The position numbers and the translations under genes were made by a program. From contig NZ_BIFH01000017.1 in the NCBI RefSeq assembly GCF_003967355.1, forward strand, positions 62,001 through 126,000: a stretch of 64,000 nucleotides of DNA, written 5' to 3'. Source of the stretch: Embleya hyalina (GTDB lineage: Bacteria; Actinomycetota; Actinomycetes; Streptomycetales; Streptomycetaceae). Below, piece after piece: positions 7,007 to 54,543 of this stretch. Within the stretch, counting starts at the first letter, position 1; each line of letters begins with the position of its first letter. The notes beneath the pieces are model-generated. The model ran no database searches, was not told the DNA's origin, and was given only the letters and a program-made list of their open reading frames with translations.

Positions 7007-7669
7007 GTGCACGACGAATCGGCGGAAACGGCGGAACGACGGGCGGTCGGCGCGCCCCCACAGCGCATCGGGCGCCCCCGCAGCACCACTGCGGACGACG
7101 CGATCCTGGCCGCGGCGCGCGCACTCCTGGCCGAGGGCGGCTGGGCGGGGCTGACCATGGGCGACGTCGCCACGCGTGCGGGCGTGGCCAAGACCACGCT
7201 GTACCGCCGCTGGCACTCCAAGCACGACCTGGCCATCGCCGCCGTCGCGGAGATGCTGGGCACGCTGCGCCTGCCGGATCGGGGCCCGGATCTACGCGCG
7301 GACATCGAGGACGTGGTCCGCCGCTTCGCCGCGCTCCTCGGCCGTCCCGAGATGCGCACGGCCCTGATGGGCCTGGTAGCCGACTCCACCAGCGACCCGG
7401 CCCTGCGGCGGCGCATCCGCGAGGAGGTCGTCGACCCCCAAAAACGCCTGGTGGTGGAGGGCCGAGCCCGAGCCGAGGCCAGGGGCGAGATCACCGCCCC
7501 CGGCGACATAGACGTGGACCTGATCTTCGACGTGATCGCCGGCACAGTGGTCCAACACGTCCTGGTAAGCGCCGAACCCGCCTCCGACAACTGGATCCAA
7601 CGCTTCACCACATTCGTGGCAACCGCCCTACTCCCCCACCCCGGACAACCAGCCCACCCACCCGCTTGA
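7007..7669 (+). CDS. TetR/AcrR family transcriptional regulator
   Basis: 220 residues from GTG 7007. Residues about 22-75 form the TetR helix-turn-helix (DDAILAAARALLAEGGWAGL, GDVATRAGVAKTTLYRRWHSK). The C-terminal part is a helical ligand-binding/dimer domain. The gene lies between the thioredoxin-like gene and the convergent icmA gene. A motif directly upstream (6981-6996) is shared with the promoters of ccr, thiolase/mce, meaA, the tandem hydroxyacyl-CoA dehydrogenase and the DUF6230 gene. I therefore infer that this protein may be the local repressor of acyl-CoA metabolism, perhaps sensing an acyl-CoA. The family is clear; the regulon is inference. Confidence 0.85.
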   Translation: MHDESAETAERRAVGAPPQRIGRPRSTTADDAILAAARALLAEGGWAGLTMGDVATRAGVAKTTLYRRWHSKHDLAIAAVAEMLGTLRLPDRGPDLRADIEDVVRRFAALLGRPEMRTALMGLVADSTSDPALRRRIREEVVDPQKRLVVEGRARAEARGEITAPGDIDVDLIFDVIAGTVVQHVLVSAEPASDNWIQRFTTFVATALLPHPGQPAHPPA

Positions 7670-7689
7670 GCCCCTCACCCAAAGCCCGA

Positions 7690-7925
7690 GTCAACTCCCC
7701 CAAAAGCCCACCCAAGCAATTCCAGCCCACCGGTGCTTGAGGCCACCTCGACCGAAGGCCAGGTCAACTCCCACACAAGCCCACCCACGCAATTCCAGCC
7801 CGGCCGGCGTTTGAGGCCAAAGGCACCCCGACCGGCCCAGGTGCGCGCGAGGCCACCTCGACGGGAGCCCAGGCCCTCGACCGAAGGCCGGGTCCCCCAG
7901 CCCGGCCGGCGTTTGAGGCCAAAGG
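7690..7925. repeat. Tandem-repeat array A in a convergent gap
   Basis: Three related units begin CAGCCC at 7723, 7796 and 7898 (spacings 73 and 102 bp). The core of the last two is GGCCGGCGTTTGAGGCC, with short GGCC arms around GGCGTTTGA. Between cores lie repeated pieces such as AAGCCCACCCA and CTCGACCGAAGGCC. The array fills the 271-bp space between the convergent TetR and icmA genes and resembles arrays B and C. Confidence 0.75.
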
Positions 7926-11839: not shown

Positions 11840-12440
11840 TCCGGCCCACCGTCCTCAATCGCCGGACGGGCTGACACCTGTCGACCCGGTCCGGCCCACC
11901 GTCCTCAAACGCCGGACGGGCTGGATTTGCTTCGGTCTGGGGCGCAGGCTGCGGTTCGCTTTGCCGCAGCTTGAGCCCAAGAGCCAAGCAAATCCAGCCC
12001 GTCCGGCGTTTGAGGACGGCAGGCCGACTCGGGCCCACGAGGCGAGCAGCCAGACCGCAGCCCACACAACGAACCGAACCAACCCCAGCCCGTCCGGCGT
12101 TTGAGGACGGCGAGCCGGACCGGGCCCACGAGGCGAGCAGTCAGACCGCAGCCCACACACCGGGCCGAACCAACCCCAGCCCGTCCGGCGTTTGAGGACG
12201 GCGGGCCGACCCGGGCCCACCACGCGAACAGCCGGACCGCAGCCCACACAACGAACCGAACCAACCCCAGCCCGTCCGGCGTTTGAGGACGGCAAGCCGA
12301 CTCGGGCCCACCACGCGAACAGCCGGACCGCAGCCCACACACCGGGCCGAGTCAACTCCAGCCCGTCCGGCGTTTGAGGACGGCCGGCCGGCCCGGGCGC
12401 CCACCACGCGAACAGCCGGCGCGCAAGGCGGCTTCGGGCC
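11840..12440. repeat. Tandem-repeat array B (91-bp period) in a convergent gap
   Basis: Five direct units begin CAGCCCGTCC at 11995, 12086, 12177, 12268 and 12359, exactly 91 bp apart, with the last unit degenerating. Two inverted copies of the core precede them (about 11850 and 11900). Each core holds CCGTCC and GGACGG arms around a 9-nt loop (GTCCGGCGTTTGAGGAC region), able to form a hairpin. Units differ by point changes and alternate between two spacer versions (ACAACGAACCGAACC and ACACCGGGCCGAACC). The array occupies most of the 659 bp between a MarR gene and meaB. No gene is seen here. Confidence 0.88.
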
Positions 12441-17284: not shown

Positions 17285-20200
17285 ATGGAGTGGGACCCCA
17301 CAGTGCGGGGCTACGACCGCTACCAAGTCGACGAGCACCTCGAACAGCTCGACGACGAGATCAAGCGGCTGAAGAAGGAGCGCGACGACACCGTCGCCCA
17401 CGCGGAGGACCTCGGCTATCAGGTCGAGGTTCTCCGCGCGAAGCTGCATGACCTTCGCCGCCAGCTCGCCACACCCCGATTCGACAGCATCGGCGGCCAG
17501 GCCGAGCAGATGTTGCGCAACGCGCAGCTGCAGGCCGACCAGGTCCGCGCCGACGCCGAGCGCGAGTTGCAGGAGTCGCGCGCGACCACCCAGCGCCTGC
17601 TGCAGGAGGCCGCCGCCCGCTCCGCCCGGCTCGAGGCCGACTGGCAGGCCGAGGTCATGGAGCGCCGCCGGCGCCTCGACGAGGAGCTGACCCAGGCCCG
17701 ACAGGCCACCGAGGCCCGGGTCAACGAGAACGTCGCCTGGGCCGAGCAGTTGCGCGCCCAGGCCGAGGAGCGGGCCCGCCAACTCCTGGACAACGCCCGC
17801 ACCGAGGCCGAGCGGGTGGCCGCCGCCGCCCGCGAGCAGGCGGCCGGCACGAACGAGAGCACGCGCGCCGAGGTCGAGTCGCTGCTGTCGCGTGCGCAGG
17901 GCGACGCGGACCGGGTGATCGCCGAGGCCAAGGCCCGGGCGAGCGCGGCCGTGGACCAGTCCGAGCAGTTGCGCACCGAGACCCGCACCCGCGCGGAGAG
18001 CCTGGTCGGCGACGCCCGGGTGGAGGCCGCCCGGATCATCGGCGAGGCTCGGTCCGAGGCCGAGCGGGTCACCGGCGAGGCCGGCGCCCGGGCCCAGGGC
18101 GCGTCCGAGAACACCGCGAAACTGCTCGAATCCGCCCAGTTCGAGATCGAGCGGCTGCGGGCCGAGGCGGCCGGCGAGGCGGACCGCCGCCAGGCGGAGG
18201 CCCAGCGGCTGCTCCAGGGCGCCGAGGCCGAGGCGGGTGAGAAGCTCGGCAAGGCCGCGACCGACGCCGAGGCGCATCTGGCCAAGGCCCGCGCGGAGGC
18301 GGACAAGCTCACCGCCGAGGCCCGCGGCGCCGCCGAGCGGCTGCGCGCCGAGGCGATCACCGAGGCGGACCGGCTGCGCGACGAGGCCCGTGCCGAGGCC
18401 GAGGCGCTACGTACCGACACGCGCGCCGAGTTGGACACCGCCCGCGAGGAAACCCTGGCCCGGGTCGACGAGTTGGAGGCCGGGGCGCGCGCGGAGATCG
18501 AGCGCCGCCGGCAGGAGGTGGACCGACTGCGGGCCGAGGCGCAGCAGTTGCTCACCAACGCCGAGTCCGGCGCGGCCGAGCGCCTGGAGACCGCCGCGCG
18601 GGCCGCCGACGACCTGATGGCCAAGTCCCGGTCCGAGGCCGAGCGGGTACAGAGCGAGGCCCGCACCGAGGCCGACGAGCTGCGCGCCCGGGCCCAGGCC
18701 GACGCCGAGGCGGTCGAGACGCGCACCCGCGCGTCGAGCGACCGGCTGGCGAACGAGGCGCGCGAATACGCCGAGCAGGTGCGCGCCCAGGCCGGCGAGA
18801 GCGCCGAGGAACTGCTCGAGGCGGCCCGCGCCGACTCGGGCAAGCTGCGCGAGAAGGCGGTCGCCGACACGCACCGGCTGCGTGAGATGACCAACCGCCA
18901 ACAGGCGGAGGCCGCCGAGGAGTTGGAACGCGCCCGGATCGAGGCGCAGACCCTGCGCAGCGAGGCCGCGGCCGCGGCCGAGCAGCTGCGCGAGGAGTCC
19001 GCGGCGCAGGCGGCGGAGCGGGTCGAGGCGGCCCGTGCCGAAGCCGAGCGGGTGCGTACCGAGGCCGCCGAGAACGCCGGTCGTTCGCACGCCGAGGCCG
19101 AGGAGCTGGTGGCCAAGGCCCGGGCGGAGGCGCAGAAGGCGGACGCCGACGCGACCCGCGCCGCCCAGGAGCTGATCCGCTCCGCCGAGCAGGCCGCGGC
19201 CGAACTGCGCGATCAGGCCCGGGCGCGGGCCGAGGCGATGGGCGCCGAGGCGGAGCGGCAGGCCGCCGAGCTGCGGACCCGGACCGAGGAACTGCGGGCC
19301 CGGGCCGAGCAGTCCGCCGGCGACGCCGAGGCCGCGCTGGACCGGGCCCGGGCCGACGCCGAGGCCACGATGGAGCGCGCTCGCGCCGAGGCGGGCGCCC
19401 GCACCCAGTCGGCCGCGGTCAAGGCCGACGAACTGATCGGCAAGGCCCGGGAAGAGGCCGAGAAGGTCCGCACCGACTCGCGCCGCGAGGCCGACAAGGC
19501 CCTCACCGACGCGCGTACCGAGGCGGAGAAGACCCTCGGGGACTCGCGCGAGGAGGCCGACCAGATGCGTTCGGCCGCGCGTCGCGACGCGTCCTCGATG
19601 CGCGAGGAAGCGGAGACCGAGACCCGCACACTGCGCGAACGGACGGAGAGCGAGACCCGCGCGCTGCGCGAGGAGACCGAGCACACCGCGCGATCCCTGC
19701 GCGAGAGTTCGGAGAACGCGGCGGCGACCCTGCGCGAGGAGAGCACCGAGCAGGCCCGCGCCCGGCTGGCCGCGGCCGAAGCGGACGCGACCCGGATGCG
19801 CACCGAGGCGGCGGCCGCGGCCCAGGCACTGCGCGAGAAGACCACCGAGACCGCCCGCTCGGTCCTGGAGCAGGCCGACGAGGAGGCCGAGCGCATGCGC
19901 ACGGAGGCCGAGACGGCCGCCCGCACGCTGCGCGAGGAGACCACCGAGACCGCGCGTTCGGTCCTGGAGCAGGCCGACGCCGAGGCCGAGCGCATGCGCA
20001 CCGAGGCGGAGGGCGCCGCGCACACGCTGCGTACCGAGACCGCCGCGACCGTGCGCGCCGCGCTGGACAAGGCCGAGAAGGACGCCGCGCGGATGCGGGC
20101 CGAGGGCGAGGAGACCGCGCTCGGCATCCTGGAGCAGGCCGACGGCGAGGCGCGCGCGCTGCGCCAGGAGGCCGCCGCCGCGCTGGCCGCGGCCAAGGCC

Positions 20201-22009
20201 GACGCGGACACGATGCGCACCCAGGGCGAGACCGACGCGGACCGGGCCCGGTCCGAGGCGCAGACCGCCGCCCGCGCGCTGTTGGAGCGCGCCGAACGGG
20301 ATGCCGAGCAGGTGCGCGCCGACGCCGAGCACGCGGCCGGGACGCTGCGTCGGGAGGCCGCCGAGGCGCTGGAGGCGGCGCGTACCGAGGCGCAGCGCCT
20401 GCACACCGAGGCGACCTCGACGCTGGCCTCGGCGAACGCCGACGCGACCACGCTGCGCGAGGAGGCCGCCGCCGCGCTGGAGGCGGCGACCGCGGAGGCG
20501 GAGCGGCTGCGCGACGAGGCCGAGACGGCCGCGCTGAGCCGGCTGGAGCAGGCCGACACCGACGCCACGCGGCTGCGCGAGGAGGCCGAGGCCGAGGCGA
20601 CGCGGCTGCGTACCCAGGGCGCCCAGGCGCTGGAGGAGGCCCGCGACGAGGCGGCCGAGTTGCGCGATCGCACCAAGGCGCGGGCGCGCGAGTTGCTGGA
20701 GAAGGCCGAGGCGCGGGGCACCGACCTGCTGGACAGCGCCACCACCCAGGCCCGGCTGGCGAAGGAGGACGCGGCCCGCGCGGTCGCCGAGGCACAGGCC
20801 GAGGCCGAGGCGGTACGCGCCGCGGTGGTGGGCATCGAGGACGCCGCCCGGGAGGAGTCGGACCGGCTCACCGCGCTCGCCGAACGCGACCTGGCCAAGG
20901 CCCGCGACGACGCGGAGACCACGCTGGTCCGGGCCCGCGCGGAGGCCGACGCCACGGTCACCGCCGCGCGCAAGCACGCCGACCGGATGAAGTCCGACTC
21001 CGACCGCGAGGCCGAGAAGACCCGTACGGCCGGCCGCGAGGCGGCGAACAAGGAGCTGCGCGAGGCCGAGGAGGCCGCGACGCAACTGCGCGAGCAGGCC
21101 CGCGCCGAGCTGGAGCGGGCCACGAACGACGCCGAGGAGTTGCTGGTTCGGGCCAAGGGTCGGGCCACCGAGATCGTCGGCACCGCCGAGCGCAAGGCCG
21201 AGAAGCGCGTCGCCGAGGCGACCGAGGCGGCGAATCTGCTGATCGCCGAGGCCGAGGCGGAGGACGAACGACTGCGCGCCGAGGCGACCGCGGTGATAGA
21301 GAAGGCGCGCCAGGACTCCGACGCGATGATCGGCGAGACCCGGCGCGACACCACCGCCACGCGCGAACGTTCCGACCGCGAGGCCGAGCAGGTCGTCGAA
21401 CGCGCGCGTCGGCAGGCCGCGGAGGGTCTGAAGCAGGCGGGCAAGCGGGTCGACGACCTGGTGGCCGCCGCGGAGGAACAGGTGAGCGAGGCCCGCGTGG
21501 ACGCCGAGAAGATGAAGGTGGTCGCGGCCGAGGAAGCCGAGCGGATTCGCGACAAGGCCGGTTCCGAGGCGGATAGGGTACGTATTGCCGCGGTGAAGAA
21601 GGCCGAGGCGCTGCTCTCGGAAGCGGAACAGCGGCTCGCCGACGCCCAGAAGGGCGCGGACGACCTGCGGGCGAAGGTGGCCGAACAGGTGGCCGCCGCC
21701 CAGCGGGAGGCGCAGGCGGTCCGTCGCAAGACCGCCGCGGACGCCGAGAAGGTTCTCGACGAGGCGCGGAAGGAGGCGGAGCGACTGCGCACCGAGGCGC
21801 GCAAGGAAGCCGACCGTCATCGCGCCGACGGACAGCGCAAACTCGACGAGTTGAACCGCAGACGCAAGGACATCACCGCCGAGATGTCGCGCGTGCAGGG
21901 CGTGTTGGACGCGCTCGCCGCGCCCGCGGGCCTCGCGGCCGGCAAGGGCAACTCCTCGTCGGGCAAGGGCTCCGCGACGAAGGGCTCCGGTTCGTCGTCA
22001 TCCGATTGA
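17285..22009 (+). CDS. scy: Scy, polar-growth coiled-coil scaffold
   Basis: 1574 residues, almost all coiled coil. Residues 1-60 resemble a DivIVA-type tip domain (RGYDRYQVDEHLEQLDDEIKRLKKE). Then follow about 1,450 residues of Ala/Glu/Arg-rich helix with periodic EAEA.R.R.EA units that also make the DNA internally repetitive, and a Ser/Gly/Lys tail. Scy in S. coelicolor organises the hyphal tip polarisome with DivIVA and FilP; I recall it as about 1,330 residues, so this copy is longer, probably by extra coiled-coil repeats. filP follows at 110 bp, as expected. The opposite strand carries very long open frames that are only composition shadows. Confidence 0.93.
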   Translation: MEWDPTVRGYDRYQVDEHLEQLDDEIKRLKKERDDTVAHAEDLGYQVEVLRAKLHDLRRQLATPRFDSIGGQAEQMLRNAQLQADQVRADAERELQESRATTQRLLQEAAARSARLEADWQAEVMERRRRLDEELTQARQATEARVNENVAWAEQLRAQAEERARQLLDNARTEAERVAAAAREQAAGTNESTRAEVESLLSRAQGDADRVIAEAKARASAAVDQSEQLRTETRTRAESLVGDARVEAARIIGEARSEAERVTGEAGARAQGASENTAKLLESAQFEIERLRAEAAGEADRRQAEAQRLLQGAEAEAGEKLGKAATDAEAHLAKARAEADKLTAEARGAAERLRAEAITEADRLRDEARAEAEALRTDTRAELDTAREETLARVDELEAGARAEIERRRQEVDRLRAEAQQLLTNAESGAAERLETAARAADDLMAKSRSEAERVQSEARTEADELRARAQADAEAVETRTRASSDRLANEAREYAEQVRAQAGESAEELLEAARADSGKLREKAVADTHRLREMTNRQQAEAAEELERARIEAQTLRSEAAAAAEQLREESAAQAAERVEAARAEAERVRTEAAENAGRSHAEAEELVAKARAEAQKADADATRAAQELIRSAEQAAAELRDQARARAEAMGAEAERQAAELRTRTEELRARAEQSAGDAEAALDRARADAEATMERARAEAGARTQSAAVKADELIGKAREEAEKVRTDSRREADKALTDARTEAEKTLGDSREEADQMRSAARRDASSMREEAETETRTLRERTESETRALREETEHTARSLRESSENAAATLREESTEQARARLAAAEADATRMRTEAAAAAQALREKTTETARSVLEQADEEAERMRTEAETAARTLREETTETARSVLEQADAEAERMRTEAEGAAHTLRTETAATVRAALDKAEKDAARMRAEGEETALGILEQADGEARALRQEAAAALAAAKADADTMRTQGETDADRARSEAQTAARALLERAERDAEQVRADAEHAAGTLRREAAEALEAARTEAQRLHTEATSTLASANADATTLREEAAAALEAATAEAERLRDEAETAALSRLEQADTDATRLREEAEAEATRLRTQGAQALEEARDEAAELRDRTKARARELLEKAEARGTDLLDSATTQARLAKEDAARAVAEAQAEAEAVRAAVVGIEDAAREESDRLTALAERDLAKARDDAETTLVRARAEADATVTAARKHADRMKSDSDREAEKTRTAGREAANKELREAEEAATQLREQARAELERATNDAEELLVRAKGRATEIVGTAERKAEKRVAEATEAANLLIAEAEAEDERLRAEATAVIEKARQDSDAMIGETRRDTTATRERSDREAEQVVERARRQAAEGLKQAGKRVDDLVAAAEEQVSEARVDAEKMKVVAAEEAERIRDKAGSEADRVRIAAVKKAEALLSEAEQRLADAQKGADDLRAKVAEQVAAAQREAQAVRRKTAADAEKVLDEARKEAERLRTEARKEADRHRADGQRKLDELNRRRKDITAEMSRVQGVLDALAAPAGLAAGKGNSSSGKGSATKGSGSSSSD

Positions 22010-48177: not shown

Positions 48178-48617
48178 GCCACTCCCTGTGCTCCCCGTCG
48201 TGGTTCCTCGACGCACCGGTGCGACCTGGGACGAGTCCGGGCACCCGGGGGCGGAAACCGGTGATCAGTGTGCCGGGCGCGGCCGGCGCACCGATACCCG
48301 GCGCCGGGTTCGTGACAAGATCGTTGAGCACCGACGCGGGCCGCCCCGAGGCGGCCGAGCATGGGCATCGTGTGTCCCCGCCGTACCACGTTCCACCTTG
48401 CCACCTCCCGCCGTCGAGCGGACCGTCTCCGGGCCGACCTTCGCTCCCTCTTCACAACAACAACGCGCGCGTCCGCAACTGGTCACGGGGCCGGCGCGGG
48501 CGGGTGACCGGGGGCCGGTGAGGTTGCCGAAAAGTCGGTCTACGCCCGGCGAGTCACCCTATGGTGCAGATGTGGCGCCACAACTGCCAGGCACACAGGG
48601 GGAACAGGGGGACATAT
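48178..48617. other. Divergent intergenic region between ATPase-like and secreted protein genes
   Basis: 440 bp without a convincing gene. AGGGGGA before ATG 48618 is the only clear site on the right. No operator motif from the acyl-CoA set is seen. Confidence 0.55.
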
Positions 48618-51600
48618 ATGTCCGGTTCCATACACTCGCGACACGCGGGACGGCAGGTGCGCCGGGGACGAACCCGGTTTGCGTGCGCCGTCGCGCTGTT
48701 CGCCTCCTTGGCACTGTCGATACCCTCGGCTGGCGCATCGCCGGCCGCGACCACGAGTACGTCGAGCACCTCCACCACGCGCCCACCCGGCCCCGAACTC
48801 TTCGGCTCCTCGCCGACCGCGCGCGACGCGACGGCCCGAGCCGCCGCCGTACCGCCGAAGTTCGCCGACGAATCGGTGCTGACCGGGCTGTCCCAGCCGA
48901 TCGACGTGGCCTTCGCCAGGGACGGCCGGGTCTTCGTCGCCGAGAAGTCCGGCGTCGTCAAGGTGTTCGACTCGCTCACCGACACCACACCCACGGTGTT
49001 CACCGATCTGCGGGCGCAGGTGCACAACTTCTGGGATCGCGGCCTGCTCGGCCTGGCCCTGGCCCCGAACTTCCCCACCGACCCGTCGGTTTACGTGATG
49101 TACGCGCACGACGCGCGTCCCGGCGGCTCCGCGCCCTACTGGGGCACCGCCACCGGCGCCGACGACGGTTGTCCCGACCCGCCCGGCGCCCAGGCGAAGG
49201 GTTGTCTGATCACCGGGCGGATCGCCAAGCTGACCGCGACCGGGAACACCGCCGGTCCCGAGCAGGTGTTGGTCGAGGGCTGGTGCCAGCAGTTCCCGTC
49301 GCACTCGGTCGGCTCGCTCGCGTTCGGCCCGGACGGCTACCTGTACGCGTCCGCGGGGGACGGGGCGAGCTTCGACTGGGCGGACTACGGGCAGACCCCG
49401 GCGAGCGGCGCGATCCCGGGCAAGGAGCCGATCCCGGCGAATCCGTGCGCCGACGGCACCGCGGCGGTGGGCACCGTACTGACCGCGCCGGGCGCCGAGG
49501 GCGGCGCGCTGCGGGCCCAGGACTTCCGCACCACGGGCGACCCGTTCGCGCTCAACGGCAGCATCATCCGGATCGACCCCGCCACCGGCGCGGGCGCGCC
49601 CGGCAACCCGCTCGCGGGCAACGCCGACGCCAACGCCCGCAGACTGGTGGCAGCCGGCCTGCGCAACCCGTTCCGGTTCGGCTTCCGGCCGGGCACCAAC
49701 GAGGTATGGGTCGGCGACGTCGGCTGGAGCACGTGGGAGGAGATCGACCGGCTGACCCCGTCGAGCACGGCCGTGGCCAACTTCGGCTGGCCCTGCTACG
49801 AGGGCTCGGCCCGCCAGGGCGGCTACGCGTCGATCGGCCTGAACCTGTGCACCAACCTGTACGCGGAGGGCGCGGGCGCGGTCAAGGCGCCCTACTACGC
49901 GTACCAGCACGGCGCCGTGGTGGCACCGGGCGACGGTTGCGCGACCGGCAACGGCTCGGCGATCTCCGGGGTGACCTTCTACGGCGGACAGCGCTACCCC
50001 GCCGCGTACCGCGACGCGATGTTCTTCGCCGACCACAGTCGGCGCTGTATCTGGAGCATGCGCGCGGGCGCCGACGGCCTCCCGGACCCGGCCACCCGCC
50101 AGGCGTTCGTCACCAACACCAATCCGGTGCAGCTGACCACCGGCCCCGAGGGCGACGTGTACTACGTCGGCTTCGAGGACGGCGCGATCCACCGGGTCCG
50201 CTACACCGGCGGCGCGCCCACCGCGGTCGCCTCGGCCACGCCGACCACCGGCGGCACCCCGCTGACCGTGGCCTTCACCGGTTCCGCCTCCACCGACCCG
50301 GATCCGGGCGAGACTCTCACGTACGCCTGGGACCTCGACGGCGACGGCGCGTTCGACGACTCGACCACGGCGAACCCGTCGTACACGTACACCGTGCCCG
50401 GCACCTATCACGCCAGGTTGCGCGTGACCGACCCGGTCGGGCTGACCGGCGACTCCGCCCCGATCACCGTCACCGCGGGCAACTCGCCGCCGGTACCGGT
50501 GATCGACTCCCCGGCGTCGACGCTGACCTGGAAGGTGGGCGACCCGATCACGTTCGCCGGGCACGCGACCGACCCCCAGGACGGCGCGATTCCCGGCAGC
50601 GGCCTGAACTGGCGGATCGTCATGCACCACTGCACCACGCCGACCAACTGCCACGAGCACCAGATCACCGCGCAGGGCGGCGCCTCCGGCACCTTCACCG
50701 CGGTCGACCACGAGTATCCGTCCTGGCTGGAACTGCGCTTGACCGCAACCGACTCCGGCGGCCTGACCGGGACCACGAGCGTGCGCCTGGATCCGCGGAC
50801 GGTGGACATCACCCTCGCCTCGAACCCGCCCGGTCTGGCCCTGGGCCTGTTCTCGTCCCAGCGCCCGGCACCGTTCACCGGCACGGTGATCGTCGGCGGC
50901 ACGTCGTCGATCGCGGCGCCTTCGCCGCAGACGCTGAACGGCAAACGCTACGAGTTCGCGTCCTGGTCCGACGGCGGCGCGGCGGCACACAACATCACCG
51001 CACCCGCGACGCCGCTCACCCTGACCGCCACGTTCCGCGAGGTCGACGGGCCGGTACCCGGGCTGGTGGCGCAATACGGCTTCAACGCGTCGAGCGGCAC
51101 GATCCTGGTCGACGACGCCGGACAGGGCAACAACGGCACCGTCGCCGGTGCCGCGTGGGTACCCGGCCGCACCGGCAACGCGCTGTCCTTCAACGGGACT
51201 TCATCGATGGTGACGGTGCCGCACAGCGCCCGCCTGTCGCTCACCGCGGGCATGACCCTGGAGGCCTGGGTCAAACCCACCGCGATCACCGGCTGGCGCT
51301 CGATCCTCCTCAAGGAGCGCGGCGGCGGCCTGTCCTACGCCCTGTACGCGAACGGCACCGCCGCGCCCAACACATCCATCAACACCACAGGCACCAACAA
51401 CGACACCTACGCGGACGGCACGGCACCGCTGCCCACCGGCACCTGGACCCACCTCACCGCCACCTACGACGGCACCACCCTGCGCCTGTACGTCAACGGC
51501 ACCCAGGTCCGGGCCACCCCACACACCGGCCCGATCATCGACGCCGGCGGCGCCCTCAGGATCGGCGGAAACACCGTCTGGGGCGAATACTTCGCAGGCC

Positions 51601-51680
51601 TGATCGACGACATCCGCATCTACGACCGAGCCCTCACCCCCACGGAGATCACCACCGACATGACCACCCCGATCCCCTAG
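48618..51680 (+). CDS. Secreted PQQ-type sugar dehydrogenase with PKD and LamG domains
   Basis: 1020 residues from ATG 48618. A signal peptide (RRGRTRFACAVALFASLALSIPSAGAS) is followed by a Ser/Thr linker. A glucose/sorbosone dehydrogenase beta-propeller covers about 70-520 (LSQPIDVAFARDGRVFVAEK, RGLLGLALAPNFP, LAFGPDGYLYASAGDG, RNPFRFGFRPGTNEVWVGDVG). A PKD domain follows near 540-620 (ASTDPDPGETLTYAWDLDGDG), then Ig-like segments, and a C-terminal LamG/concanavalin domain (about 810-1010; LEAWVKPTAITGWRSILLKE, WTHLTATYDGTTLRLYVNGT). It probably oxidises an extracellular sugar or binds polysaccharide. It looks accessory to the surrounding core genes. Confidence 0.88.
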   Translation: MSGSIHSRHAGRQVRRGRTRFACAVALFASLALSIPSAGASPAATTSTSSTSTTRPPGPELFGSSPTARDATARAAAVPPKFADESVLTGLSQPIDVAFARDGRVFVAEKSGVVKVFDSLTDTTPTVFTDLRAQVHNFWDRGLLGLALAPNFPTDPSVYVMYAHDARPGGSAPYWGTATGADDGCPDPPGAQAKGCLITGRIAKLTATGNTAGPEQVLVEGWCQQFPSHSVGSLAFGPDGYLYASAGDGASFDWADYGQTPASGAIPGKEPIPANPCADGTAAVGTVLTAPGAEGGALRAQDFRTTGDPFALNGSIIRIDPATGAGAPGNPLAGNADANARRLVAAGLRNPFRFGFRPGTNEVWVGDVGWSTWEEIDRLTPSSTAVANFGWPCYEGSARQGGYASIGLNLCTNLYAEGAGAVKAPYYAYQHGAVVAPGDGCATGNGSAISGVTFYGGQRYPAAYRDAMFFADHSRRCIWSMRAGADGLPDPATRQAFVTNTNPVQLTTGPEGDVYYVGFEDGAIHRVRYTGGAPTAVASATPTTGGTPLTVAFTGSASTDPDPGETLTYAWDLDGDGAFDDSTTANPSYTYTVPGTYHARLRVTDPVGLTGDSAPITVTAGNSPPVPVIDSPASTLTWKVGDPITFAGHATDPQDGAIPGSGLNWRIVMHHCTTPTNCHEHQITAQGGASGTFTAVDHEYPSWLELRLTATDSGGLTGTTSVRLDPRTVDITLASNPPGLALGLFSSQRPAPFTGTVIVGGTSSIAAPSPQTLNGKRYEFASWSDGGAAAHNITAPATPLTLTATFREVDGPVPGLVAQYGFNASSGTILVDDAGQGNNGTVAGAAWVPGRTGNALSFNGTSSMVTVPHSARLSLTAGMTLEAWVKPTAITGWRSILLKERGGGLSYALYANGTAAPNTSINTTGTNNDTYADGTAPLPTGTWTHLTATYDGTTLRLYVNGTQVRATPHTGPIIDAGGALRIGGNTVWGEYFAGLIDDIRIYDRALTPTEITTDMTTPIP

Positions 51681-51689
51681 CCCAAACCC

Positions 51690-52265
51690 TTCGAGCGCCG
51701 GACGAGCCGACAACGAGCCCATCCGGCGCTCGAAGACACCAAGCCACCGGATCCACACCCGCCTCAAGCCCAAACCCGACCAACCCAGCCCGTCCGCCGT
51801 TCGAGGACGCCAAGCCACACCGAATCCAAGCCCGCCCCAAGCCCGAACCCAACCAAATCAGCCCGTCCGGCGTTTGAGGACGGCGACCCAACCTCGGCCC
51901 ACACCCGCCCCAAGCCCGAACCCGACCAACCCAGCCCGTCCGGCGTTCGAGGACGCCAAGCCACACCGAATCCACGCCCGCCTCAATCCCGAACCCGACC
52001 AAATCAGCCCGTCCGGCGTTTGAGGACGGCGACCCAACCTCGGCCCACGCCCGCCCCAGGCCCGAACCCGACCAACCCAGCCCGTCCGGCGTTTGAGGAC
52101 GGCGACCCAACCTCGGCCCACGCCCGCCTCAAGCCCAAACCCGACCTAATCAGCCCGTCCGGCGTTTGAGGACGGCGACCCAACCTCGGCCCACGCCCGC
52201 CTCAAGCCCAAACCCGACCTAATCAGCCCGTCCGGCGTTTGAGGACGGCGAGCCGACCTCGGCCC
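51690..52265. repeat. Tandem-repeat array C (73-bp period) in a convergent gap
   Basis: Seven units begin CAGCCCGTCC at 51786, 51859, 51932, 52005, 52078, 52151 and 52224, exactly 73 bp apart, after one degenerate unit near 51715. The core is the same CCGTCC/GGACGG hairpin as array B; the spacer is CTCGGCCCACGCCCGCCTCAAG-like and unrelated to that of array B. One alternate form carries GTTCGAGGACGCC and spoils the stem. It fills the 612 bp between the secreted-protein gene and meaA. Confidence 0.88.
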
Positions 52266-52292
52266 ACGACACCACCGAGGCCGACCGCTACA

Positions 52293-54329
52293 TCAGGCGG
52301 ACAGCCCGTTCGCCTCCCGAATCACCGACACGATCCGCCCCATGATCTCCGTGATCCCGAAGTCCTTCGGCGTGAACACGGCCGCCACCCCCTGCGCCGA
52401 CAACGACGCCGCGTCCGCGGCCGGAATGATCCCGCCCACCACCACCGGCACATCACCGATCCCCGCGTCGCGCATGCGCGAGAGCACGTCGGGGATCAGC
52501 TCCAGATGCGACCCCGACAGGATGGACAGCCCCACACAGTGCACGTCCTCCTCCACCGCGGCCGCGACAATCTGCGCCGGCGTCAGCCGAATCCCCTGGT
52601 ACACCACCTCGAACCCGACATCGCGCGCCCGAACCGCGATCTGCTCGGCCCCGTTCGAGTGCCCGTCGAGCCCCGGCTTCCCGACCAACAAGCGCAGCCG
52701 CCCGCCCAGTTCCTCCCCGGTCCGGCGCACCGCCCCCCGCACCTCGGCGAGCCCGGCGCCGTCCTGCACGCCGACCACCCCGGACACCCCGGTCGGCGCC
52801 CGATACTCGCCGAACTCCTCGCGCAGCGCCTGCGACCACTCCCCCGTGGTCACCCCCGCCCGCACACACGCCAGCGTGGCCGGCATCAGGTTGACCGCGT
52901 CGGCGGCCTTCCACGACCGGGCGTCATCGCGCAGCCGCGTCATCGCCGCCGCCACCGCCTCCGGATCGCGGGCCGCCCGCCACGCGCCGACCTTCTCGAT
53001 CGCCGAGCGCTCGGCGTCGGGGTCGGCACTCATGATCGCCGCGTCCAGGTCCGCGGTGAGCGGGTTCTCCTCGGTGGTCTCGAACCGGTTCACCCCGACC
53101 ACCACCTCCTCGCCCGCCTCGATCCGGGCCCGCCGGGCCGCGTGCGAGCCGACGAGCTGCGACTTCATGTAGCCCGACTCGATCGCCGCGACCGCGCCGC
53201 CCATCGCCTGCACCCGGTCGATCTCCTCGCGCGCGCCCGCCACCAGGTCCGCGACCTTGGCCTCGATCACATGCGAGCCGGTGAAGATGTCGCCGTACTC
53301 CAGCAGGTCCGACTCGTAGGCCAACACCTGCTGGATCCGCAACGACCACTGCTGGTCCCACGGCCGGGGCAGCCCCAGCGCCTCGTTCCAGGCCGGCAGC
53401 TGTACCGCCCGGGCCCGGGCGTCCTTGGACAGCGTCACGGCCAACATCTCCAGCACTATGCGCTGGACGTTGTTCTCCGGCTGTGCCTCGGTCAGCCCGA
53501 GCGAGTTGACCTGTACGCCGTAGCGGAACCGGCGCTGCCGGGCGTCGCGCACGCCGTAGCGCTCCAGGGTGAGCTCGTCCCACAGCTGCACGAACGCCCG
53601 CATCTTGCACATCTCCTCGACGAAGCGCACTCCGGCGTTGACGAAGAAGGAGATGCGCTGGACCACGTCGCCCATGCGCTCCGGCGGCACCTGCCCGGAG
53701 TCGCGGACCGCGTCGAGCACGGCGATCGCGGTGCACATCGCGTAGGCGATCTCCTGCACCGGCGTCGCGCCGGCCTCCTGGAGGTGGTAGCTGCAGATGT
53801 TGGTCGGATTCCACTTGGGCAGGTGCGAGACGGTGTAGGCGACCGTGTCGGTGATCAGCTTCAGCGAGGGGCCGGGCGGGAAGACATAGGTCCCGCGCGA
53901 GAGGTATTCCTTGATGATGTCGTTCTGCGTGGTGCCCGTGAGCTTGGCGACGTCGGCGCCCTGCTCCTCCGCGACCACCTGATACAGCGCGAGCAGCCAC
54001 AGCGCGGTCGCGTTGATCGTCATCGAGGTGTTCATGCCCTCGACGGGGATGCCGTCCAGGAGTTCGCGCATGTCGCCGATGTGCGAGATCGGTACGCCGA
54101 CCTTGCCCACCTCGCCGCGGGAGAGTTCGTGGTCGGGATCGTAGCCGGTCTGCGTGGGCAGGTCGAAGGCCACGGACAGGCCGGTCTGGCCCTTGGCCAG
54201 GTTGCGGCGGTACAGCGCGTTGGACGCGCCGGCCGAGGAGTGACCGGCGTAGGTGCGCATGACCCAGGGGCGATCGCGCTCGACCGGGGTCGGCTGCGAG
54301 GGCTGAGCTGAGGGCGTCTGGCTCGCCAC
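52293..54329 (-). CDS. meaA: MeaA-type B12-dependent mutase (ethylmalonyl-CoA mutase)
   Basis: 678 residues from GTG 54329, preceded by GGAGG; the longer in-frame N terminus has no support. The catalytic barrel begins RPWVMRTYAGHSSAGASNALYRRNL, a MeaA/Ecm hallmark, and keeps Arg in EYLSRGTYVF, where IcmA has Gln198, as needed for a free carboxylate. The C-terminal B12 domain has DGHSNG (DxHxxG), SIL and VVVGGI. The enzyme probably converts ethylmalonyl-CoA to methylsuccinyl-CoA after ccr and mce. A GTTACY-N4-RGTA site lies 109 bp upstream. Confidence 0.92.
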   Translation of the reverse strand: MASQTPSAQPSQPTPVERDRPWVMRTYAGHSSAGASNALYRRNLAKGQTGLSVAFDLPTQTGYDPDHELSRGEVGKVGVPISHIGDMRELLDGIPVEGMNTSMTINATALWLLALYQVVAEEQGADVAKLTGTTQNDIIKEYLSRGTYVFPPGPSLKLITDTVAYTVSHLPKWNPTNICSYHLQEAGATPVQEIAYAMCTAIAVLDAVRDSGQVPPERMGDVVQRISFFVNAGVRFVEEMCKMRAFVQLWDELTLERYGVRDARQRRFRYGVQVNSLGLTEAQPENNVQRIVLEMLAVTLSKDARARAVQLPAWNEALGLPRPWDQQWSLRIQQVLAYESDLLEYGDIFTGSHVIEAKVADLVAGAREEIDRVQAMGGAVAAIESGYMKSQLVGSHAARRARIEAGEEVVVGVNRFETTEENPLTADLDAAIMSADPDAERSAIEKVGAWRAARDPEAVAAAMTRLRDDARSWKAADAVNLMPATLACVRAGVTTGEWSQALREEFGEYRAPTGVSGVVGVQDGAGLAEVRGAVRRTGEELGGRLRLLVGKPGLDGHSNGAEQIAVRARDVGFEVVYQGIRLTPAQIVAAAVEEDVHCVGLSILSGSHLELIPDVLSRMRDAGIGDVPVVVGGIIPAADAASLSAQGVAAVFTPKDFGITEIMGRIVSVIREANGLSA

Positions 54330-54437
54330 GGAATACCTCCGGAGGTTCCGGACCGACCGGATCTCGGCGACTACCGGCCTGGGCAACCCCGCTGGTCCGC
54401 TGTCACCGCGCCTGGTTCGGCCCTGCTTACCACGGAG

Positions 54438-54453
54438 TGTACTGACGGGTAAC
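54438..54453 (-). promoter_or_regulatory. Putative operator upstream of meaA
   Basis: On the minus strand GTTACCCGTCAGTACA fits GTTACY-N4-RGTA, about 110-125 bp before the meaA GTG. The gap to the next gene (54544) is otherwise empty. Confidence 0.55.
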
Positions 54454-54543
54454 CGCTCCGGACAGGTGTGATCGACCACAGCCCGCAAGTCGTTTCCCGG
54501 CCTGCCTGACAGTGTGTCGGCGCCCGTCGACGCACCGTCCCGA

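Follow-up and report, generated by a model that had tools for sequence, protein, structure and literature searches.

REPINs are inverted pairs of short palindromes that act as one hairpin unit. The MIRU/VNTR minisatellites of actinobacteria are intergenic tandem units of 40-100 bp whose copy number changes. According to a survey of REPs, these are 20-40-bp dispersed palindromic repeats that lie mostly in convergent and unidirectional gaps 3' of genes and commonly form head-to-head dimers (PMC3733652). It distinguishes a CGTC-tagged superfamily of REPs, reportedly without a dedicated transposase, in which stems measure 8-9 bp and loops 4-5 bases and a CCA tail is usual; neither the word Streptomyces nor the word Actinobacteria occurs in its main text (PMC3733652). 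Stenotrophomonas is reported to have clusters in which the segments between repeats are unrelated to those of other clusters (PMC2817692).

The repeat studied here occurs in a stretch of 64,000 nucleotides (the window) and its nearest known kind is REP/BIME, of which we class it as a variant and not as a member of a named REP class. It is likewise a short dispersed extragenic repeat with 3'-end placement and head-to-head dimers, and its arrays, like those reported for the Stenotrophomonas BIMEs, for the most part have unrelated inter-repeat segments in different clusters. It differs in having a 4-bp stem and a 9-nt loop. BIMEs alternate in orientation, and head-to-tail dimers are reported as absent or rare in most REP genomes, whereas the arrays of the window's genus are nearly all same-orientation: neighbouring cores had the same versus opposite orientation in 111 versus 4 cases in the window's own genome (G000) and in 114 versus 5 in a congener (G002). 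In fetched loci of two genomes from other genera the counts were 13 versus 10 (G126) and 11 versus 6 (G362). Most copies in the window's genus lie in same-orientation arrays with locus-specific spacers.

The inverted-pair hairpin is shared with REPIN-RAYT systems, but Y1_Tnp (PF01797) was absent from all four genus genomes. Among 30 relatives, the domain showed no association with copy number, being present in 7 of 15 copy-rich and 6 of 15 zero-copy genomes. A RAYT/Y1 transposase was thus rejected as the mover. The letters CGTC are found in the core as in CGTC REPs, but the stem (GTCC/GGAC) has 4 bp, the loop 9 nt and there is no such tail. The tandem units are like those of MIRU/VNTR loci, although here different loci mainly have the core in common, most spacers being locus-specific. 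A literature search that included core strings did not recognise the element; it left most subscription journals outside its coverage, so the term 'undescribed' is not established.

Layout of the array

The intergenic gap at 51681-52292 (612 bp) lies between two genes that are convergent according to a codon-usage caller made for this analysis, which supplied all gene calls in place of an annotation. TRF reported a tandem array at 51753-52268 with period 73, 7.1 copies and 86% matches. The TRF score of the gap was 727; dinucleotide-preserving shuffles gave any row in only 10 of 200 cases, the best scoring 67. The features of the gap, its neighbouring genes and the other core-bearing sites of the window are as follows.

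48561-51680, + strand: left gene, with GSDH, PKD and Laminin_G_3 domains (Pfam)
51687-51703, - strand, and 51721-51737, + strand: decayed head-to-head pair, long hairpin; offset 34; 4 and 3 mismatches to the core
51712-52268, + strand: tandem array, one decayed unit and seven cores at a 73-bp step (TRF, pattern search, unit identity matrix)
51785-51857, + strand: unit 1, sub-type A, with two mismatches in its core (51792-51808)
51858-51930, + strand: unit 2, sub-type B; core 51865-51881, exact
51931-52003, + strand: unit 3, sub-type A, with one mismatch in its core (51938-51954)
52004-52222, + strand: units 4-6, all of sub-type B, their cores exact and starting at 52011, 52084 and 52157
52223-52268, + strand: last core (52230-52246) and unit-like sequence behind it
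52293-54488, - strand: right convergent gene, methylmalonyl-CoA-mutase-like, with B12-binding domain (Pfam)
11851-12417: second array with the same core; - cores at 11851 and 11901, then five + cores at 91-bp steps (TRF, pattern search)
7649-7920, + strand: third site, with the core variant GGCCGGCGTTTGAGGCC (7802, 7904) beside a 73-bp TRF row

A pattern search placed cores at 51792, 51865, 51938, 52011, 52084, 52157 and 52230, every step being exactly 73. Together with TRF this confirms the seven units at constant step proposed by an earlier, sequence-only reading of this DNA. To these we add an eighth, decayed + core at 51721, which lies 71 bp (about one step) upstream of the first regular core and faces the decayed - core at 51687. 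The decayed pair (51687-51737) sits directly 3' of the left gene's stop codon. Two unit sub-types, which the earlier reading took to alternate, do exist, but their order is A B A B B B B, with A at units 1 and 3 only. The two A units were identical at 68/73 positions, B units 2 and 4 at 71/73 and units 5 and 6 at 72/73, compared with 55-59/73 between A and B (units 1-6). Because of the identities within sub-types, the (AB)(AB) pattern looks like a 146-bp block duplication followed by single-unit duplication. A coding repeat was rejected, since 73 is not a multiple of 3.

The array at 11851-12417 occupies another convergent gap, and its + part spans 11994-12417. As had been claimed, it carries the same core with an unrelated spacer: no spacer match to the 73-bp array was found at E 1e-3. 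The site at 7649-7920 is a third convergent gap, where GGCCGGCGTTTGAGGCC represents a compensated T-A to G-C change in the stem.

The core and its head-to-head form

The core measures 17-23 nt, and copies from G000 and G002 gave the consensus CAGCCCGTCCGGCGNTTGAGGAC. They were located by the 17-mer part of the core, so conservation within it is partly circular; the CAGCCC extension beyond the 17-mer, outside the search pattern, is also conserved. The core stem consists of four pairs, GTCC/GGAC, around a 9-nt loop. Pairing was assessed on 79 distinct 21-mers from genus loci only, chance loop matches included. The third pair covaries (T-A or G-C), with 61 of 79 copies paired versus 38.9 expected. 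The first, second and fourth pairs were near expectation (58, 58 and 53 versus 58.4, 53.0 and 52.4), and two outer pairs were unconserved (23 and 18 of 79 versus 24.7 and 20.6). Since these outer pairs beyond GTCC/GGAC are unconserved across the family, GAGGACGCC, previously read as a broken right arm, is no broken arm and represents the usual state. A GGCC/GGCC sub-family comprises 15 copies, including those at 7802 and 7904 in the window.

Head-to-head pairs at an offset of 28-40 numbered 18 in fetched loci: three in G000, three in G002, five in G126, whose loci were partly chosen for their pairs, and seven in G362. Pairs in the opposite order at this offset were absent from the fetched loci of all four genomes. 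G126 belongs to another genus and consists of one 9.7-Mb contig; among 100 of its places that were listed, 19 head-to-head pairs with start offsets of 33-35 were identified by eye. Four of five examined pairs formed a perfect 50-bp palindrome and one was a base longer. The RNA fold of the 50-mer palindrome had a z of -12. That of the decayed pair 51687/51721 reached -33.7 kcal/mol on the + strand and -42.4 kcal/mol on the - strand (z -8.3 and -7.6). RNA structure was unremarkable in single 73-bp units (z 0.0, -0.3, -2.0 and -0.7) and in a single 91-bp unit (z 1.1 and -0.4). The head-to-head pair is probably the basic form of the element, and half of such a hairpin pair is the presumed origin of the array.

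On reading the sequence behind the hairpin at 51689-51735, no T-run longer than three was found on either strand. A canonical intrinsic terminator was thus rejected: the GC hairpin is present and the U-run is absent on both strands.

Larger arrangements were also seen in G126. Loci L184-L188 are composites with inverted cores about 377 bp apart, recurring at several loci, and within L184-L186 there are long inverted repeats but no gene was called.

Gene context and distribution

Of the 39 clusters in the own genome, 23 lay in convergent gaps and two had an undetermined context. The convergent share was 22 of 32 in G002, versus 19 of 143 among background gaps, which include the window's three core-bearing gaps. 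The count omits four of 43 own-genome clusters whose best core had 2 mismatches (none of 32 in G002), and counts gaps with two clusters each (L091, L121 and L155) twice. The G002 clusters were drawn from 100 listed places of 156 and the loci of the two genomes overlap by orthology, hence these are non-independent samples. Only one cluster in each genome (of 39 and 32) occupied a divergent gap, and none of 75 in the two genomes was called inside a gene. In G362, 20 loci picked from single listed cores comprised 9 convergent, 11 tandem and no divergent gaps. The 21 loci of G126 comprised 10 convergent, 10 tandem and no divergent gaps, with one locus called inside a gene. Array and pair loci of other genomes were divergent in 1 of 20 cases. 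This placement in convergent and tandem gaps, and the avoidance of divergent ones, indicates that the element is a gene-3'-end repeat. A fixed core orientation relative to the upstream gene was rejected for tandem gaps (13 of 22, p 0.5).

The window contains no tRNA genes. They were also rejected as a cause of odd contexts, as scanning 19 loci returned one tRNA-Arg (L117) and two doubtful tRNA-Leu (L150). The latter are ARAGORN calls at 9038-9186 of L150, which overlap each other and a core array with a step of about 65 bp. They are probably false and could mislead annotation.

The own genome contains 99 exact 17-mers. With up to 2 mismatches allowed, the 21-mer matched it at 82 places and a reversed control pattern at none. 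The exact core was found in 163 of 345 family genomes and in 4 of 17 genera. It is absent from the other 182 genomes, indicating that it has no essential function. The richest family genomes carry 308, 290, 235 and 179 exact copies, and genus g9 alone ranges from 0 to 308 exact cores per genome. In a set made up of the own genome and 60 relatives, 13 genomes carry the core, none of them among the 24 from outside the family. Named plasmid records with a core-region match came from Streptomyces (nine), Embleya (two) and Gemmobacter (one). The Gemmobacter match lies inside an aldehyde dehydrogenase gene and is probably due to chance. The linear replicon of Embleya sp. NBC_00896 holds the core region at at least 40 places. 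Spread by phage was rejected, as phage records gave no match and viral contigs gave one contig with one match.

Array turnover, strand bias and possible explanations

The G002 mutase is 98% identical to that beside the focal array and the surrounding sequence aligns at up to 95.8%. Core and core orientation agree in the orthologous array, but its steps are 99, 99 and 78 bp and its spacers showed no similarity to those of the focal array at E 1e-3. Behind the last core, 37 of the first 41 bases match the G002 right flank. Elsewhere in the genus, G001 has cores at this site, and G003 lacks them even with 4 mismatches allowed. Among 80 named loci around the mutase, a core was present anywhere in only 3. 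Across 23 orthologous locus pairs, three had a single core on one side. Spacer sequence was shared in 14 of the remaining 20 (at least two cores on both sides) and not in six, among them the focal array; four of the 20 are uninformative on spacers, as L108/L150, L091 and L121 span inter-cluster DNA and L116 is almost spacerless. The window's 91-bp array shares spacer sequence with its ortholog (83% over 60 bases).

The best match to the focal spacer elsewhere in fetched own-genome loci had E 0.001 over 33 bases, and that in fetched G002 loci E 4e-4. The fetched own-genome loci hold 94 of the 99 exact cores, five lying outside, and nowhere else in them does the identical 73-bp unit occur; local amplification thus stands for the loci covered. 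Common spacer sequence at E<1e-3 was found in 18 of 276 own-genome array pairs. A unit of about 80 bp (the core plus about 55 bp, often with GGCCGGAGGCC) is common to L118, L122, L107, L115 and L121 of the own genome. Thus, units can also disperse. The unrelated steps and spacers at the G002 ortholog support a sequence of events, judged from alignments, in which the core would have spread before being amplified locally. The earlier reading had proposed this order, with amplification of whatever flanked the core. Its dispersal and local origin hold, but the flank is not simply arbitrary, as spacers share a strong A>T and C>G strand bias. In some other arrays the units are themselves dispersed.

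Polar array growth is weakly indicated. Of 41 decided arrays, 29 had more of their core mismatches in the upstream half (p 0.01), in a set that includes background matches at 4-5 mismatches and non-independent orthologous arrays. Adjacent-unit identity was flat (30 versus 24).

Of 49 arrays read in core orientation, 48 had A>T and 47 had C>G in their spacers. The mean A-T skew of the spacers was 0.61 in G000 and 0.72 in G002, and their composition A 0.25, C 0.53, G 0.17 and T 0.05. By comparison, the A-T skew of 12 core-free convergent gaps was within 0.3 of zero in 11 and 0.53 in one; absolute skews of G000 arrays differed from those of these gaps with a Mann-Whitney p of about 5e-5. The flanks of 19 single cores showed little of the strand bias. 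In 15 arrays of other genomes, two of them from the window's genus, A>T held in 13 and C>G in 10. In G002 (dnaA at C1:3332795), orientation follows the replichore in 26 of 32 clusters, including 19 of 22 convergent ones, and in 23 of 27 clusters with at least three cores. The exact cores of G362 (41 + and 43 -), mostly single, are mixed on both sides of dnaA as judged by eye. Replichore orientation was thus rejected as a general rule: the polarity of the G002 arrays is absent in G362 and does not extend to the whole family.

The explanation we favour, with moderate confidence, is a REP/BIME-like element without RAYT that expanded locally and possibly acts at transcript ends, a role suggested by its placement and composition. 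A hairpin pair would have lodged 3' of the left gene, and one half of it, with adjoining DNA, would have been tandemly duplicated. Replication slippage or unequal exchange is the presumed route because of the 146-bp AB duplication and the near-identical neighbouring units. Less certainly, the elements may be kept or tolerated at convergent gene ends. There the hairpins, together with the intervening stretches rich in C and A and poor in G and T, could assist in ending or trimming transcripts, most likely with Rho, so that less read-through would reach the facing gene. In being rich in C and poor in G, the strand resembles a Rho-loading sequence. REPs are stated to facilitate Rho-dependent termination (PMC2817692). 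Several results argue against this explanation: single units are not unusually structured, the T-run is lacking, orientation in tandem gaps is variable, copies are patchy and only the third stem pair clearly covaries. The site itself is unconserved, G003 being coreless at up to 4 mismatches and only the 3 of 80 mutase loci having a core. Against Rho in particular, bicyclomycin reportedly has no effect on colony growth of S. lividans (PMC3765725), and the exact core is missing from over half of the family genomes searched. A stronger form of this idea is rather improbable in our judgement. Polar, replication-oriented arrays without a known mobilizer would, through their A/C-rich spacers and hairpins, be one-way insulators (Rho traps) that stop head-on transcripts of the lagging strand before a facing leading-strand gene, with selection keeping orientation and composition and not spacer sequence.

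A purely selfish or neutral REP-like sequence is a serious, if tentative, alternative and is compatible with the amplification part of the favoured explanation. Such a sequence would be spread by an unidentified mobilizer, survive at gene 3' ends, where an insertion is least damaging, and grow by slippage with no benefit to the host. The very uneven copy number within genus g9, the recurring G126 composites and the turnover of units at fixed loci all fit this account. It fits less well with the persistence of the core while spacers turn over, although loci were found by their cores and lost cores are invisible. Nor does neutral copying alone predict the spacer strand bias, which is largely missing from the 19 single-core flanks. 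That bias could instead reflect mutation and not selection, a doubtful but possible account that concerns composition only and is compatible with the others. Lasting single-strand exposure, at a fork or in an R-loop, would deaminate C and A and leave that strand G/T-rich, which would account for the A/C-rich strand as well as for array orientation following replication. The observed direction of skew is the one that deamination of the other strand should give, and the replichore-matched G002 arrays agree with it. However, 11 of the 12 core-free convergent gaps have an A-T skew within 0.3 of zero, and the replichore bias is absent from G362, where most copies are single.

By analogy with E. coli BIME-2, the arrays in convergent gaps might serve as binding sites for gyrase or a nucleoid protein and take up positive supercoils. 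BIME-2 binds gyrase (PMC2817692), and both the concentration in convergent gaps and the asymmetric core with its conserved CAGCCC extension outside the searched 17-mer would suit a topological element. The many relatives without the element do not, and we consider this role unlikely. Regular repeats with spacers also recall a CRISPR-like array, which is excluded for practical purposes: the spacers are near-identical, repeated and not unique, and Rfam gave no match at gathering score in the window. Known RNA families were rejected too, as the Rfam scan of 11 loci of unusual gene context likewise gave none at that score.

If the REP/BIME-like explanation is right, Streptomyces-type bacteria would harbour a family of REP type that has burst in particular lineages, with exact copies ranging from 0 to 308. 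The family would spread without the transposase thought to spread REPs, in hosts that the available text of the REP survey does not name (PMC3733652). As the arrays turn over between close relatives, they would provide a natural test of short-repeat spread without RAYT. They would also test how convergent transcription is handled where Rho inhibition is reportedly harmless. Tandem repeats also occur in the window within a called gene at 17285-22009 (1574 residues), which has 33- and 99-bp repeats and perhaps encodes a coiled-coil protein.
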